DNA from: Tilletia caries
Lineage: Eukaryota > Basidiomycota > Exobasidiomycetes > Tilletiales > Tilletiaceae
Direction of reading: 5' to 3'
Assembly: GCA_032718865.1 (NCBI GenBank)
Contig: JALUTQ010000032.1
Coordinates: 930,001 to 994,000, forward strand
Length of the DNA stretch: 64,000 nt
Both the position numbers and the translations under genes were made by a program. The number at the start of each line of letters is the position of its first letter. Within the stretch, counting starts at the first letter, position 1. Positions 16,307 through 46,899 of this stretch are shown one piece after another. The notes under the pieces are model-generated. The model saw only the letters and a program-made list of their open reading frames with translations. It had not been told where the DNA came from and did not search any database.

Positions 16307-16404
16307 GTCGTTGTACCGAAGTGGTTAACGGGATGGTCTCGAATCTGCAAGTCTTCGCCAACCATTGGACTCTGTCCGCGTAGGTTCGAATCCTATCGGC
16401 GACG
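16307..16404 (+). tRNA. tRNA-Ser(CGA) with 16-base intron
   Basis: Folds as a class II tRNA: acceptor stem GTCGTTG pairs with CGGCGAC; anticodon stem ATGGT/ACCAT; loop carries anticodon CGA at 16340-16342; a 16-base intron (16344-16359) begins one base 3' of the anticodon, the usual position; long variable arm with stem GGAC/GTCC; T arm GTAGG-TTCGAAT-CCTAT containing a perfect B box. Discriminator base is G, as in serine tRNAs. The long variable arm and G73 separate Ser from other CGA-like readings. Confidence 0.9.
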
Positions 16405-37930: not shown

Positions 37931-38690
37931 ACAGGGGTTTGGGGGTCGTTATTCCATAGAGGTAATAACGATGAATAACGATCGTTATTCAGGCCCGAAT
38001 ACACGAAAACTTGCGACACCTGTTCACCGCTGTTCATCTCCGTGAATAACGATCGTTATTCACCGTTATTCACCGTTATTCACGCCGTGACCAAGTGTGA
38101 ACAGGGGAGGAACCAGCTAGCAAATTTAAGGCTCTCTCCAATAGATAAACTCTCCACCAGCGCACCATGGCAGCATTAAGCATTACATACGCATCACGTA
38201 TTACGCATCGTCCATCACGTCTCATCATGACCCGACGCGGTAGTCCACACTCTGGTCTGCCACGCACTCGTCCTGGTCAATCGAGCATGCCTGGTGCGGG
38301 GGAGTACATCCCTCTCCATCATACATACGTGTAGCAATACTGAAAAAAACGAGGTTTTTGTGTCTTCAAAAAAAAGCAACATCGTTTGGGCCAAAAGGTA
38401 TGAATTTTTTTCAGATCCAGTGAAGACGCGTGGAGACCCTCGAAACCCACAAGATGGGCCGAAAACCGAGGAGTCTGGGCTGCCTCCGGAATACTAGTAC
38501 GGAACAGCGACGAACAGCGACGAACAGCTGTGGTTGTTACGGGAGAAGTACTAACTATGAATAAGTACGAACAGCGGCGAACAGCGACGAACAGCTGTCG
38601 TTATTCCGGGAGAAGTACTAACTCTGAACAGCGGGCGCAATTACATGTATTCACGTGTATTCACCAGTGAATAACACCCCTCAACCTCCA
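37931..38690. mobile_element. Small inverted-repeat element with subterminal repeats
   Basis: Left end AGGGGTTTGGGGGTCGTTATTC and right end GAATAACACCCCTCAACCTCC are imperfect inverted repeats of about 21 bases. Between them lie GTTATTCACC and AATAACGATCGTTATT words on the left and repeated GAACAGCGACGAACAG plus GGGAGAAGTACTAACT on the right. No protein coding potential. A MITE-like element is the best description. Confidence 0.5.
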
Positions 38691-38694
38691 GTGA

Positions 38695-39034
38695 TGTGCG
38701 AACACTTGGTTCGGAAAGAGAGTCTTACCTGTTGCCGAGAGCAGACAGAAGAAAAGTAGAACAATGCAAGGACGGATTAATTCTAAGCGAGGGAGGAAAT
38801 GAGGCGCAGCGGCTTAAATACAAATGAGGTGCGAGTGAGTGAGGCCGCTGCGGCGAGTGAAGGAAAAAGAGGAAGGAAAAAGTGGAGCGTTGCGTAACGA
38901 TTCTGAAGCAGTGAGCGGAAAAAGTGTTCAGTGAGGAAAAGTGTTGAGAGAAATCGGGAATCGGATCGGAGCGGAACGGAATCACAGAGAAGGATTAAGG
39001 AAGCTGTTATACTCAGGAGCTGGTTGCCAGCACA
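38695..39034 (-). repeat. 3' LTR of Gypsy element
   Basis: 340 bases, ends TGTGC..GCACA. The pol stop codon lies inside it at 39013-39015. Confidence 0.9.
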
Positions 39035-42000
39035 TCCCCACCCTCAGAAGCAGACCGTCCCTGGTCTGCAACTGGGAGGCGAGAAAGGGCGTCTGCGTTC
39101 GTGTGGCGGGCCCCGGGGCGATACAGGAATCGAAGGTTGGCCAGATGCGGCATGATCTCTGCGCGGCAACGTGTGATGGTAGGCCCGTAAGGAATGTTGG
39201 TCGTCGACCGAAGCACGCGCTCCATCGGAGAATGGTCTGTAATCACGGTCGTGAAGGCCCCTTCGAGTAGATGCGCAAGCTTCCGATGGGCCCACGTGAA
39301 ACAGACCAGTTCCAGCTCAGCGGCCACGAGTTTGGACTCCGCTGGGGAAGTGAGCCGGGAAAGAAATGCGACCGGACGTTCGGTGAGGAGAAGCCGGTCG
39401 TTCCCATCCTGAAAGAGACGGGGCCGGGGAAGCGGGCCGCGAAGCAGATCGTCGAGTTCGTCGGCTGCCGAGGACCGGACGGTGCCCAAGACGAAGTCCC
39501 CATGAGCAGCAGGGTGACGACGAACGCGCGGTGGGAGGGCAGGATCAGCGTCCCCGATCACCTCCGCGGCTTCGTCCATCGTCAACGAGTCCGAAAGCCC
39601 TGCCGAGTCCACCGTATCCTCAACCCGGGGGTCTACAGGGAGCTCAGTCCGGTCGGCAACGAAGGGGTCGTCGGCAGTCGTGTCGATATCGATCTGCTCG
39701 ATGTTGAAGACCGGGTCGATGCCTAGGTGCGGAGGAAGAGTGAGGCGAACGCGATGGGCCGACAGGACTTCTTCAACTGGGAACGGCCCGAGCTTTCGAG
39801 CGTCCAACTGATCCGAAACGGCGCCCGCAACTGGACGATCCCGGAGACGAATCCAAGCGGACATCCCCGGCGCCACCAGAGCCGGAGCAGCACGCCGTGA
39901 GTCGTATCTGCGCTTCTGTTCAACGCGAGCGGCGACGATGTGTTGACGAGCTTCGTCCAGGCGATTTTGAGCCGCCGACAGACGTTCCTCGAAGGAGCCC
40001 ACGCCGAGATGTTCCTCCGAGTCGAAGATGGCATGGACTATGGTCGGGTGGCTGATGAAGATCAGGTCGAAGGGCCGATGACCGGTGACAGACGACGGGC
40101 TACTGTTGATCGCCAATTCGACCGAAGGGAGAAGACGGCGATCCCAGTGCGACTTCGACGGCAGGGCCATGACTTGAAGGACACGGTGGACAGTCTGTAC
40201 CACGCGTTCCACGCTATTGGCTTGCTGATGGTACGGACTGGAGGGCGTGCTGATTGCGCCCAGAGACTCGCAGAGGGCCGACATGACCGAACCAGAGACC
40301 CGTGCTTCAGAGTCCGAGACGATACGGCGAGGCCGCCAGCCGAAGCGGAGCACGCGGTTGCTCACGATGGCAGCGACTCCGTCCGCGGTAATCTCCTTTG
40401 CGCAAGGCTCGAGGATGACCATGCGCGAAAAGAGGTCCTGGATCACCAGAGCGGCGTCGTTCCCCGCCCTTGATCGTGGGAACCCGTAGATGAGGTCGAG
40501 CGAGATGTGATCGAAGGGAAGCGTCGGGTCCGTCGAAATGTCCAACATGCCGGTCTTTGGGGAGGACTTCGTGCGTCGGCATGAGTCGCAGTGTTTGACC
40601 CAAGCACGAACCGCGGTGGAAAGCTGGGGACGCCAGAAGTGCTTTCGAACAGCAAGGAACGTCTTCCAAAACCCGAAGTGTCCGCCCTGATCGTGAGCAT
40701 GTCGCAGAACGACGGAAAGGCCCGCGGCAGGGAGAGCGATCCGGTCATCGCTGCGACGGACGAGGACAGAGTCCCGAAGCACCCATTCGTTGTCGGATGT
40801 TGGCCGGTCTTGGGCGCGACGCAAGATCGGCGCGAAGAACTTGTCTTCGGACAACCACATCGTCCACCGATCGCGTGCAATGCCCGAAGGCAATTGAGAT
40901 ACGGACAGCGTGTTCAGGTGAGCACCGACGGGATCGATGGGGACAGGGGCGGGTGTGGTCGTCACCTGATGAAGGATGGCCGCAAGAGCTCCCTTGGACG
41001 CATCAGTGTAGAGGATGTAGGGCCGGGACGGATCGGGGTGGGCGAGAACGGGTGGATTTGCGATGGCCGCCCGTAGAGCCTCGAAACTGGCCTGCTGTTC
41101 GGGGCCCCAAGACAACGGAACCTTAGCCGCGGATACCGCCCGTCCCTCAGTGTTCACGAGTCTGGTGTTGCCGTCGGCAGATTCGTATCGCCAGCCCTTG
41201 AGTAGCCTTGTAAGCGGAGCCGCGATCTCGGCGAAGTTCGGAATAAAAGCACGATAGTACCCAAACAAGCCGAGAGTGTGGTATAGCTCCTGCAGCGTAT
41301 GAGGGCGTGCCAGAGTTTGGACCGCCTTCGCTCGATCTTGCCAGACGGCGACGCCAGCCCCAGACACTTTCCGGCCGAGCAAGGTGAGGCTGGGCACCGC
41401 AAACGTGCATTTGGCCGGACTGAATCGAAGTCCGATGGCCTCAGCATTCCGCAGTAGCGTGTCCAGCGCACGAAGATGCTCATCGAGGTCATCTGTCGCA
41501 ATGACGGAGTCGTCGATATATACCACCGCTTGTTGCCAGCGGAGATTGCCGAGGACCTTATCCATCATCCTTTGGAAAAGCGCCGGAGCATTTCGCAACC
41601 CGAAGGGGACTCGCTTGTATTGGTAGAGTCCCCTGTGGCAGACGAAGGCCGTTTTTCCATCGGTCGTCGGGGGCCACGCCGAGTTGGTGGTAGCCGCGGA
41701 TGGCGTCTAACGAACTGAACCATTTCTTTCCGCAGAGGGTTTGAAAAATGGCGTCGATCGTCGGGAGAGGATATCGGTCGGGCACGGTGCTGGAGTTCAG
41801 TTGGCGGTAGTCGACGCAGAACCTCCACTTCCCGTTCTGTTTGACCATCACAACGGGGAAGGAGACCGGGCTTTGTGACGGCTCGATCACATCCCAATCC
41901 AACAACTGTTCGATGGCCACATCCATGGCTGCCCGTTTCTCCGGGCTCGCGCGCCTAAGGGGTTCCGGTGGCAGATTGGTGTTGGGCTCGAGATGGATGT

Positions 42001-43258
42001 CCATATCGTGGCCCTCAATTCGCCCCGGGCGGCCATCTAGGGCGAAAGCAGCCGAATGGGCTCGCAACAACTCCACGACGGATGCATGGGCGTTCCCGAC
42101 GGCGTCCACTCCAACCCGATAAGCGCCGTCCACGAGAGTGGTATCCGCGTCCTGTGTCAACGAGTTAACTGGAGAGTCGATCTCGTCGAACACGTCGAGC
42201 GGAAGACCAGCTTCGTCTGGCTCAGGGACAGCCGGAGATCGGACGGTGAAGGGATCGGGTTGGGACGGAGCGCCGAGATGGAACAGCTCCCCATCGTCGG
42301 AGATGCGGTCGCCTATCCGCGCGGCGGTGGCATCGGCGATCACAGTGCCTTTCTCCAGCTCGAATGGCGCCGACCCGTAATTGCCGACCAAGATATGGCG
42401 GACAGCCCCGTTATGAAGGAGACCAACGGGACCCGTCAATCGGACGGACTCGTCGGGCGTGATGGAGAGGCGGGGCGCGACGGTGTAGTCGACACCGGGG
42501 GCCAGACAAGCAGCGTTGACGGAGACCCACGTCTGAAAGCCTGGCGGTAGCAAGATGGACGAGGAGGAAACGAGCTCGGCCTCCACTGCGAAGGGACCGG
42601 GGACACGTTCGCGGACTTGGAACGTGTATCGGTCGATCCGGCCTCGACCACGAGTTGGAGAGATCGAGACGTCGTAGGCGGTGATGAAATCGAGACCAAG
42701 GCAGAGTCCCGGAGGAAACGCGGGCAGGATGTGAAAGTCCTGTTCGAATTCCAGGTGAACGTGCTTGCCGTGAGGATCCGTTGCATGGAGGAACACGGGT
42801 AGGGTCGCCCACCCAAGCGTCATCGAGTCGCCAATCCCCTTTACGTGCATCGGGGAGCCAGACGCCGAGCCACCCATTTTCTCGAGCAACGAGGCGTCGA
42901 TGCACGACAGCGAAGCTCCGGTGTCCATGAGGGTGGAAAGCGCCCGACCGTCCGTGTCGTTGATACGAACGTGGGCAGTCAGAGGAACGTGAGCCCGGTA
43001 CCCTTGACCCGTGCCAGTGGCAGGTTGCTTCGGTAGTACCACCACATTTCCGAACGCCCGCTTCGGCTGTGCCAGAGGAGGGACGGCCTCGTTGGGACGG
43101 ATCGGACGCGGCGTGGAGAATACCGGTCGATCCATCAAGAACAACGTCCCCGCAGGTATGGAAGCCGACGGGAGGGTGTCTTCGGACCGGATCAGACTTG
43201 GCTCTCGAGGAGCAGAGCAGGAAGAATCATCGTGATTCGTGTGGATCTGATTGGACAT
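39013..43258 (-). pseudogene. Gypsy Pol: protease, RT, split RNase H and integrase, one-base shift
   Basis: Protease: LMDTGASLSCID near the start. RT: KQNGKWRFCVDYRQLN, FSSLDAIRGYHQ, then the frame shifts at an A5 run (T5 at 41652-41656 on the plus strand) and continues with LRNAPALFQRMM and catalytic VVYIDDSV. RNase H first strand: YILYTDASKGALAAILHQ. Directly after comes a linker and the integrase: zinc finger H-H-C-C (HAHDQGGHFGF.. HCDSC) and D,D-35-E core in SLDLIYG, IVSDSEAR and NSVERVVQT. The rest of RNase H (PVAFLSRLTSPAESKLVAAE, FTTVITDHSPMERVL, NADALSRLP) then follows, at the C-terminus beside the LTR. No chromodomain seen. Single frame from 41598 to the stop, so both odd junctions are in frame. 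Confidence 0.85.
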
Positions 43259-43288
43259 GGAGGGCGCGAAGCCATTCTCCGTGGGGAT

Positions 43289-43371: not shown

Positions 43372-46173
43372 GGAGGAGGATGTGGACTCCTGAGTGCCCC
43401 GAATTTCCTCCTTCCCAACCCCTTGACTCTCCTCGGTGTAGTAGCTGGAAGCCCCTTGATGAACCACTTCCTCTTCGAATGGGTAGTCGTCGTCCTCGTC
43501 AACGATCATGGACCGGACTTGAGGAACGAGATGCGCATGTTCGAAGTTGAAGTGATCCCCTCCGCACTTCCCACAAGGTCGATTGAGGCGCATCGGTGTG
43601 GTGCGACCCTCGACTCGATACTTGCGGGGCTCTCCGTTTTGAGCGGGAATGACGCGGGAGGGGTCGTAGGAGGCTGTCATGGCGGACACACCGTAGGGAG
43701 TAGGTGGAGCCGCGGCTGGGGCTGACGCAGTCTGGACCGTGGCAGGAGTCTTGTAAGATTTCCTAGTTATAAGGTCGTTGCAAACACAATAGAATTGGTG
43801 TTGGACAGTCGGACGCGTAGTACCGCTCGTTGTATAGAGACAGAAGTGACGCGCTGCTGAACTTTGGCCTATGCTACTATGTTTAGATAACTAACCAGTA
43901 TACCAGTGGTCCTACAGGTGTGTGGGTGAAAGTGGCTCTCTCAATCACTTGATGAAACTTTATGAGACTCAGACTTCACACAGTAGACTTTAACTCTGCA
44001 ATGATCTGTGATTGCTAAGTTAGTTGTCTGGGAGTGTGAGAGGAAAGAGCTGGGGGGACCAGAAGGGAAGAAGGGCGGCGAGGGCGCTCCTTTTTATACC
44101 TTTCATGGTGCCCCCTGATGCGCAGCGCATTGTGTGGTGTGCGCTGCGCTGAGGTGTGGTGATGTGGATGCGTCGGTGTGCTGGTGAGTCACAAGAGTCA
44201 CAGCCACGTGACAACTGACGCGTCAGATAGTAGTCATCCAACAGTCACCATAAATCACCCAGCAGTCAATACACAGTCATCCTTTGACACGGGCTAAATA
44301 CATACACAGTCATACAGTCATCATGGGAGCAGGGACGAGTCAAAGGGGAAGTGTGAGTGTGGCGAGGTGAGGTGAGAGGAAGCGGTGGTGAGTGGTGCGC
44401 GCGGTGCGCATGGTGAGCGTTGGTTCACCACGCGAAAATGTGTTTCGATGGTAAATTCGCGTGAACCAACACTTCACCAAAATTGTAAACAACACGCACC
44501 ATATGTGGCACGTGACGCGCACCACGCGTCGCACACCACACGCGCCACGTGACAATTGTCGACGCGCGGCGCGTCTCAGGTGAGAAAATAAAAACAACGC
44601 GCACCACATATCGCGCGCGCAGAGAAAAACAACCCGCACCACGTGTCGGTCACCACGCGTCGGTACGGGTGAGAGGATAGAAATGTTAACTTGTGAGGTG
44701 CTGAATAATGTACGCGTGGCACCTACATATGTCAGACACCTTACAAGTCTGGACCGCGATAGCCGGCGCGGAAGCTGAGCGCACCATGGCCTGCTGAGCA
44801 AGGCGTCCTAACGCCGACGACGAACCTTGGGTAGGAGCAGGAGAGGACGATGTGTTGATGAAAATCTTGTACATGTCCCTCCACGAGAACTCGCATCGGC
44901 CGAGCTCGTGCTGAAGTTCGTCGAGCGTGGCATGCTCGCGAGGAATGCGAAGCATGATGCTAAAGCTGGTAGGGAGGCCGTCCGTGATGTCGATGACGAG
45001 AGAATCGTCAGGCTGACCGAAACCGAATGCTTGACGGAGTTGGCGGACTTTGTGGAAGTAATAAGCCAGCGCTGTCTCTGTCGTAGGCGTCCATCGTCGT
45101 TCTCGGGCCTCGCGGCGTTGTTGAGCCGTGTTGACGGGGAATGCCTTCCGCATCGTCGCCGCCCAGGCCTCGTACGTCGTCAGGGTCGCTGCGGTGGAGT
45201 CCGGAAGACCCTCGTGCCAGACGGCAGCCTCATTGGTCAACGCAATGGGCAGCGCGCGAAGGACAGACGCCACCCAGACGGAAGAGCTGTTAGACCGAAA
45301 GACGTCGCGGACTCGGCTAAGGAAAGCTTCGAGTCGTGACGGATCGCCGGAGAAATGCCCCAGAAACTCCTGTTTACAGGGGATGGGGTGGCTGGATCGT
45401 ATATCAGGGGCCGGTGGCATTGGTACGGGTGGGACCACCTCCGGTGGAATCGCGGGGCGCAAAGGGCTCTCGTTGGAGGTGTCCTCTTGATCCTCAGCTG
45501 TATCGTCTTGAGTGGATTCTTGCTCGTCGACCGTGCTGGATAGCGCCGGGACGGGGATGCCCAGCTTGTTCATGGCGCGGCGAATCTTGCGGCGCTCGGC
45601 GGAGTTGAGGGCCTTGAACCGGTCCAACGGGGATGCGCCGGTCGGAGACGGAGTGGTGAGCAGCTGCGAAGAGAGAGCTGATGGTGTGAGGTGTGGAGGG
45701 AGGTCGCGGTTGCGACGGATGACGAAGGGAGGAGTATCCTGACCGAGAGTGGTGCGGACCGGGGAGTAGGAGCCGGGCTGACGCGATGGCGTCCAAGGTT
45801 GCTGGTTGGTCCCATCGGCGACTTCGTCGTCGTCCTCGTCGTCCTCGGGCTCGCCGCGCTGCCACTGTTCCACCTCACCGAGCCGTATGTTGAAGCCGTC
45901 CAATCGATTCGCGAGTTCATCGCGCATAGCGCGGACTTCAGCGATCATCGACATGTTGTAGAAGTCAGCGGCGACAGCGGTGAGGTCGGGGTGTGTGATG
46001 GTCGAGGCGGGGACGAGCGGAACTTGAGGGGACGAGGCAGAGACGAGCGGGTCGGAAACGGACGAGACGGGAACGAGTGGGTCTTGAAGAGCGGCCGATT
46101 GCGATCCTCCGCGAGCGCCACGACCTCGGCGTCGTCCGCGACTGGATGTCGCCGATGCTGGAGACGAGTTCAT
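43357..46173 (-). pseudogene. Gypsy Gag, interrupted by a transposon insertion
   Basis: Part one (44747-46173): a Gly/Arg-rich start, a coiled segment FNIRLGEVEQW and a retrotransposon Gag capsid-like domain (FLGHFSGDPSRLEAFLSRVR, AAVWHEGLPDS, FHKVRQLRQAFG). Part two (43357-43750): a Pro/Ala linker and a zinc knuckle variant CGKCGGDHFNFEH (C-x2-C-x3-H-x4-H). The 996-base insertion plus its 3-base duplication equals 999, and the frame before and after agrees. As it stands the first part ends at a stop inside the insertion after about 495 codons, so nucleocapsid and pol are cut off from it. Confidence 0.8.
43751..44746. mobile_element. 996-base inverted-repeat insertion in Gypsy gag
   Basis: Ends TTGTAAG(A)T(T)TC and, inverted, TTGTAAG(G)T(G)TC; flanked by a 3-base direct repeat GTC. 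No ORF for a transposase; the right third is full of ACGCGT, CACGTG and CACC words. Excision with one GTC leaves an uninterrupted gag frame, which marks the borders. A non-autonomous DNA transposon is likely; superfamily not clear. Confidence 0.75.
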
Positions 46174-46478
46174 CGCGTGTAGGTCGAGAAGGTGTAGGTG
46201 TTGATGGTGAAGTCGTGAAGAGGAGAAGAGATGTGCTGTGTAGACACGGACCCAGGGAAACCGAGGAGATGCCTCGACTCAAGGACCTACTGGGTGGTCG
46301 ACGCAGGGAGGGAAGAGAGAGCAGAAAGAGAAGGGAGAGGCCACTGGAGATTCGAAGTCTCGACGAGGCCGTCTTGAAGTTGGGAGAGGCCGCTGGAACT
46401 GTTGAGTTCGTCGGTGCCGTCTGTGGGTTTCGCTGTAGGTGGTCGGTGCACGTCAGCGAGAGAACCCTCTCATCACCA

Positions 46479-46817
46479 TGTGCGAACACTTGGTTCGGAA
46501 AGAGAGTCTTACCTGTTGCCGAGAGCAGACAGAAGAAAAGTAGAACAATGCAAGGACGGATTAATTCTAAGCGAGGGAGGAAATGAGGCGCAGCGGCTTA
46601 AATACAAATGAGGTGCGAGTGAGTGAGGCCGCTGCGGCGAGTGAAGGAAAAAGAGGAAGGAAAAGTGGAGCGTTGCGTAACGATTCTGAAGCAGTGAGCG
46701 GAAAAAGTGTTCAGTGAGGAAAAGTGTTGAGAGAAATCGGGAATCGGATCGGAGCGGAACGGAATCACAGAGAAGGATTAAGGAAGCTGTTATACTCAGG
46801 AGCTGGTTGCCAGCACA
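46479..46817 (-). repeat. 5' LTR of Gypsy element
   Basis: 339 bases; differs from the other LTR only by one missing A in an A-run. Confidence 0.9.
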
Positions 46818-46899
46818 CCCCAACAGCGTCCCAAGACGCGATCCAAGCGCGGTCGATACGCCATCTTCAAGACTGCAATTTTCATCGCACACAACACCG

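Follow-up and report, generated by a model that had tools for sequence, protein, structure and literature searches.

Retrotransposons with long terminal repeats (LTRs) are classified by the order of the domains in their Pol polyprotein, a scheme in which RNase H is taken as one block. According to PMC3248453, integrase usually comes last in Pol, Copia elements carry it between the protease and the reverse transcriptase (RT), and the order varies among families. The element described here is a Ty3/Gypsy retrotransposon of Tilletia caries, found in a stretch of 64,000 nucleotides (GenBank assembly GCA_032718865.1, contig JALUTQ010000032.1, positions 930,001 to 994,000, hereafter "the window"). 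In its Pol one enzyme is inserted in another: RNase H starts before the integrase and ends after it. This nested order spans two fungal classes with the catalytic residues kept, and marks a lineage within Ty3/Gypsy rather than a single aberrant copy.

The best matches of this Pol in the PDB are the Ty3 Gag-Pol structure 7q5b (E-value 3.6e-53) and the Ty3 RT structure 4ol8 (3.8e-28). Like other Ty3/Gypsy elements (Metaviridae), it has a Ty3-type RT and an HHCC/DDE integrase, the RT preceding the integrase, unlike in Copia, as well as LTRs, a site resembling a primer binding site next to the 5' LTR, and a putative polypurine tract. It differs from them in that RNase H is still incomplete where the integrase begins. 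The four catalytic residues of RNase H are shared with Ty3 of yeast, whose RNase H is however contiguous and ahead of the integrase. The chromodomain that chromoviruses carry at the integrase C-terminus was detected in 26 of the 27 elements with this split order outside Tilletia (in several with a score below the Pfam cut-off), though in none from Tilletia; in the split elements the integrase, with or without chromodomain, separates strand beta2 of RNase H from strand beta3. Altered domain orders exist elsewhere in the Gypsy lineage: Gmr1-like elements carry the entire integrase ahead of RT and have a contiguous RNase H, whereas the integrase of the window is not upstream of RT. The Gmr1-like order was seen in fish and other proteins among the relatives compared. 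The Phanerochaete sordida protein P0153 and its relative P0154 have the beta2-beta3 loop of RNase H expanded at the very place of the insertion, but their RNase H is otherwise contiguous and followed by the integrase. Finally, Tat/Athila elements, Odin and retroviruses with a dual RNase H also have an unusual place or number of RNase H in Pol, as described in PMC9040795 and PMC8775202. Theirs are two RNase H domains, whereas here a single domain is divided: no second complete RNase H domain was found in the proteins scanned, each part of the RNase H profiles being covered once by the best matches. A partial literature search, with most subscription journals outside its reach, returned no earlier description of an integrase lying within RNase H, and an earlier sighting is possible.

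In the window, positions 39013-41706 of the reverse strand form one open frame of 897 amino acids, in which Pfam-A finds, in this order, the C-terminal half of RVT_1 (residues 18-111), RT_RNaseH_2, the integrase zinc finger Integrase_H2C2, rve, SH3 and RT_RNaseH. The Pol features are the following, the two parts of RNase H being named RHn and RHc:

42734..43003, reverse strand: aspartic protease (DTGAS), in the frame 41558-43288; Pfam score below the curated cut-off
41633..41878, reverse strand: first half of RT, in a frame that differs from that of the remaining Pol (Pfam, open reading frames)
41167..41664, reverse strand: second half of RT (YIDD) and thumb, opening domain of the 897-residue frame (Pfam)
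40951..41109, reverse strand: RNase H part 1 (RHn), beta1-beta2, with catalytic Asp235 at 41002-41004 (Pfam, model, Ty3 alignment)
40561..40710, reverse strand: integrase zinc-binding domain, H338, H343, C373, C376 (Pfam)
40051..40518, reverse strand: integrase core, D404, D465, E500 (Pfam, model)
39691..39849, reverse strand: SH3-like C-terminal domain of integrase; Pfam score below the curated cut-off
39475..39618, reverse strand: linker joining integrase to RNase H part 2, with a predicted local distance difference test score (pLDDT) below 50 (model); most relatives outside Tilletia have a chromodomain between SH3 and part 2
39076..39420, reverse strand: RNase H part 2 (RHc), beta3-alphaA-beta4-alphaB-alphaD-beta5 (Pfam, model, Ty3 alignment)
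39310-39312, 39235-39237 and 39091-39093, reverse strand: RHc catalytic residues Glu799, Asp824 and Asp872
39013..39015, reverse strand: Pol stop codon TGA, within the 3' LTR

RT_RNaseH_2 (PF17919) is matched at residues 200-250 by positions 1-51 of its 100-position profile, and RT_RNaseH (PF17917) at residues 766-836 by positions 23-90 of 105. In the window each half by itself exceeds its Pfam cut-off, so that annotation pipelines can mistake split elements for ordinary Gypsy ones. When aligned with Ty3 RT (4ol8), residues 199-249 fall on chain positions 324-374 and residues 779-876 on 383-475, so that two pieces adjacent in Ty3 RT stand 529 residues apart in the window Pol. Since they align to neighbouring stretches, the pieces complement each other without any duplication. 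The single-sequence matches of the two pieces to Ty3 are not significant on their own (independent E-values 0.49 and 580), and their assignment to RNase H is therefore drawn from the Pfam scores. Counted on the 4ol8 alignment, whose chain numbering is the Ty3 residue numbering plus two, D235, E799, D824 and D872 fall on Ty3 D358, E401, D426 and D469, the catalytic residues named in PMC5371799.

The sequence-only reading of this locus had proposed the order RT, RNase H start, integrase, RNase H rest in one uninterrupted frame. The order is confirmed by Pfam and by the position of Glu799, Asp824 and Asp872 after the integrase. As to RT, its second half with the YIDD motif does lie in the frame, but Pol is broken inside RT (break region 41558-41706), the first half being in another frame (41558-43288). 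RNase H had also been thought to be interrupted after its first strand; the structure model places strands at residues 230-236 and 240-252 before the integrase and at 763-767 and 770-785 after it, hence the break after the second strand. In the integrase, the zinc finger (residues 333-382) has the HHCC residues as read, while the supposed D,D-35-E spacing needs correction, since 34 residues lie between D465 and E500; rve (397-493) and SH3 (620-672) both score below the curated Pfam cut-offs.

We searched the assembly of this genome (38,104,258 bases in 40 contigs) with the C-terminal piece of the window and with PF17919, scoring the best 150 of 207 and of 322 candidate matches, respectively; the counts that follow are among the matches listed. 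The C-terminal piece had 137 matches with at least 48% identity, some of them being two fragments of one copy, and the remaining 13 (32-36% identity) lay within contiguous elements. Of the PF17919 matches, 78 were half-domain ones that stopped no later than profile position 68, and the other 72 reached position 91 or beyond. A split-type C-terminal piece was found at most 4.5 kb downstream of 74/78 half-domain matches, and an integrase zinc finger was listed for 61/78. In all 60 half-domain matches with both later parts the order was RHn-integrase-RHc, never reversed, and no half-domain match had the second RNase H part directly beside it. By comparison, none of the 72 full-length matches had a split-type piece downstream, a figure that holds partly by construction because the 13 weak C-terminal matches were dropped. 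The distance from RNase H start to integrase start was 360-399 nucleotides in 61 split copies versus 594-1972 in 46 contiguous ones, as expected if the second part is missing there. Fifty-five of the 137 second-part matches had no first part listed upstream, 34 of them having an upstream integrase zinc finger. Contiguous Gypsy RNase H is common in this genome but belongs to other Gypsy elements. In one such contiguous lineage (L005 and L007), RNase H and integrase are separated by a long charged region of low complexity, 283 and 274 residues in length, respectively.

Twenty copies, picked mostly for long open frames, were fetched with their flanks. The order RT-RHn-integrase-RHc was present in 20/20, a protease in 19/20 (none was found in L051), and the whole from protease to RHc was in a single open frame in 14/20. 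No contiguous copy of this element was seen among the fetched copies or the half-domain matches, the 55 second-part matches with no first part listed being left unchecked. A Tilletia laevis protein is 100% identical to copy L041 over 82% of the query.

Three protein searches had 1086, 245 and 168 matches; the best 120 of each make up a combined set of 221 distinct proteins. Judged by their domain order, 143 of these are split, 45 contiguous, and 4 contiguous within chains holding several RTs. Among the split members, those with a name are from Tilletia, Jaminaea, Parajaminaea, Pseudozyma flocculosa, Ustilago trichophora, Ustilago sp. and Melanopsichium, i.e. from hosts of the Exobasidiomycetes and Ustilaginomycetes (Ustilaginomycotina), and database names among the matches listed are of the type "hypothetical protein", "unnamed protein product" or "RNA-directed DNA polymerase". 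Its recurrence at other loci of the genome and in other species indicates that the order is due neither to chance nor to misassembly. That a single copy was uniquely rearranged, chimeric or misassembled, as the lack of a matching target-site duplication around the window copy might suggest, has practically no chance of being true, and is ruled out by the order common to 20/20 fetched copies and to proteins of other species.

In split proteins, the end of RHn and the start of RHc are separated by a median of 505 residues. The chromodomain, when present, lies between the integrase and RHc; it was found there in 10/10 named and 16/17 other non-Tilletia split proteins, several of them with a score below the Pfam cut-off, but in 0/116 Tilletia split proteins, and Pfam did not detect it in the window frame. 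Given this contrast, the Tilletia branch seems to have lost the chromodomain or altered it past detection. In Jaminaea pallidilutea, one frame of 2176 amino acids (P0039) contains two successive split-type Pols, the second of which stops before RHc.

A quick method applied to selected rows gave one tree of RT (81 rows) and one of integrase (76 rows). On both, a single change between contiguous and split order is needed, with a Shimodaira-Hasegawa-like approximate likelihood ratio test support (SH-aLRT) of 95 and 99, respectively. In a combined RT and integrase tree (56 rows), the split rows are on one side of a single branch (support 100/100). A 70-row RT tree gives one change when 4 ambiguous rows are set aside, and three if these form a group of their own. 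As the trees are midpoint-rooted, it is likely, though not proven, that the split proteins form one clade. Most likely the split order arose once and was then kept by selection.

The nearest contiguous rows in the combined tree are P0152 and P0153, the latter from Phanerochaete sordida. Loop length between beta2 and beta3, as measured by a text pattern in 40 of 49 contiguous proteins, is 61 residues in P0153 and P0154 and 3-13 in the other 38 (median of the 40, 7 residues), from which it follows that this loop can tolerate insertions. A possible route to the split order would be a tandem copy of the RHc-integrase segment, from which the first RHc and the last integrase were then lost. The corresponding intermediate, a complete RNase H before the integrase and a second RHc after it, was sought in the 221 proteins and not found. 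Four candidates (P0150, P0188, P0189 and P0196, from Cordylochernes scorpioides) were rejected, being chains with more than one RT.

In the 136 split proteins that searches one and two gave, gapped rows being left out of the denominators, the first catalytic Asp is kept in 135/136 (the exception is P0140), the Glu in 136/136, the second Asp in 133/134 and the last Asp in 127/130. Selection was estimated from the Nei-Gojobori ratio of nonsynonymous to synonymous substitution rates (dN/dS). For the C-terminal half, 27 pairs with dS between 0.05 and 1.0, among 34 distinct natural frames and involving 23 copies, gave medians of 0.054 for RHc, 0.052 for SH3 and 0.26 for the linker between them. RHc is therefore under purifying selection, with a constraint similar to that of the integrase and clearly stronger than that of the preceding linker. 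Most full-length pairs were saturated, so that only 4-5 per segment were usable; they gave 0.017 for RT, 0.080 for RHn, 0.065 for the linker between RHn and integrase, 0.043 for the integrase core, 0.50 for the linker after SH3 and 0.061 for RHc.

Structures were predicted for the window protein and for a Ustilago sp. protein that has a gap in the integrase core. In both models, the two parts join in one RNase H fold. The suggestion that they fold together thus gains support from near-invariant catalytic residues, purifying selection on RHc and two models. The other suggestion made from the sequence, that another copy supplies RNase H, is unneeded and was found without support. Under it the split parts would be vestigial, with RNase H provided in trans by the host or by contiguous Gypsy elements, which are frequent in this genome (72/150 scored PF17919 matches reach position 91 or beyond). 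Near-invariant catalytic residues, a dN/dS of RHc far below that of the linker, and an identical domain order in two fungal classes make this highly improbable.

The explanation we prefer, and consider quite likely, is that of a chromovirus-related Ty3/Gypsy lineage, seen so far in Ustilaginomycotina, whose integrase sits within the beta2-beta3 loop of RNase H and whose two RNase H parts refold jointly. Along the Pol chain, the protease and RT are followed by strands beta1-beta2 of RNase H, then by the integrase and the remainder of RNase H, the nested module comprising zinc finger, DDE core and SH3, plus a chromodomain in most non-Tilletia members. With the integrase looped out on two linkers, RHc would fold back onto the first two strands of its own chain, and the resulting RNase H, catalytically complete, would be placed beside RT in the manner of Ty3. 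Such an enzyme, folded in cis and active, would degrade RNA during cDNA synthesis as in other Ty3-like elements.

Several observations weigh against this picture. Confidence in domain placement is low, with a predicted template modelling score (pTM) of 0.48 for the window and 0.32 for Ustilago. Asp872 is in a stretch with pLDDT below 50 in the window model, and whole RT chains align with the Ustilago model at a root-mean-square deviation of 14-21 Å, which leaves the position of RNase H beside RT unconfirmed; AlphaFold might also close a familiar fold regardless of its state in the cell. The dN/dS pairs are not independent. The window copy itself is not intact, its RT frame being broken. Among the 221 proteins, 23 have RHn without a detected RHc and in 6 no RHn was detected, many of these being partial gene models, and the Melanopsichium protein P0140, counted as split but doubtful, lacks the first Asp and has a first part that Pfam misses.

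Since the integrase is nested inside RNase H, its release would break the RNase H chain. Whether RT, RNase H and integrase work as an uncut chain is, in our judgement, about an even bet. The stronger form, an obligate single chain that has abandoned the usual release of integrase by proteolysis, so that each cDNA-making enzyme carries its own integrase, we hold to be possible, if somewhat doubtful. If it is true, the cDNA-making enzymes of non-Tilletia members would carry a chromodomain too. A variant that overlaps with joint refolding is a two-piece RNase H, tentatively entertained here: the protease would cut on both sides of the integrase, setting it free, while RT-RHn and an RHc fragment stay bound non-covalently. 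Ty3 does free its integrase from the polyprotein by cleavage (PMC5371799), and in the window model the integrase is flanked on both sides by stretches with pLDDT below 50 (residues 257-274 and 697-744) that the protease might reach, but RHc is a small piece. We regard as unlikely a swapped dimer, where RHc of one Pol chain would complete RHn of another and RNase H would exist only in Pol dimers. Long linkers would permit the exchange, and Ty3 RT is an asymmetric homodimer according to PMC5371799; the models are of single chains, in which no dimer could appear. Split elements offer a natural test of the need to cut integrase free from RT, of the tolerance of RNase H to an insertion of about 500 residues, and of the rearrangement of modular enzymes.

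The remaining features of the window element are:

38695..39034, reverse strand: 3' LTR, 340 bp, TG...CA, containing the final Pol codons and stop
39035..39045, reverse strand: putative polypurine tract adjoining the 3' LTR, within the Pol frame, read by eye
44686..46278, reverse strand: probable Gag, an open frame of 530 amino acids assigned by position
46461..46478, reverse strand: putative primer binding site, starting with TGG and adjoining the 5' LTR, read by eye
46479..46817, reverse strand: 5' LTR, 339 bp, TG...CA

The LTRs differ, as had been read, by one base, a 1-bp indel, and the Pol stop does lie within the 3' LTR. This is not odd in itself, as PMC3059260 describes plant CRM group A elements whose Pol also extends into the 3' LTR. 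No matching pair of target-site duplications was found at the element ends (38694-38695 and 46817-46818), despite the near identity of the LTRs; the ends may come from recombination between copies. Just beyond the 3' LTR, two 60-base copies, 92% alike, stand 67 bases apart (38502-38628). Between Gag and Pol (43531-43575, reverse strand), a knuckle-like motif CxxCxxxHFxFEHxH, also present at residues 425-439 of the Ustilago trichophora protein P0138, resembles the usual CCHC knuckle in a CCHH version. Elsewhere in the window, where ARAGORN (bacterial code) gave no tRNA, a 98-base Rfam tRNA match on the forward strand (16307-16404) is probably a tRNA gene with an intron.
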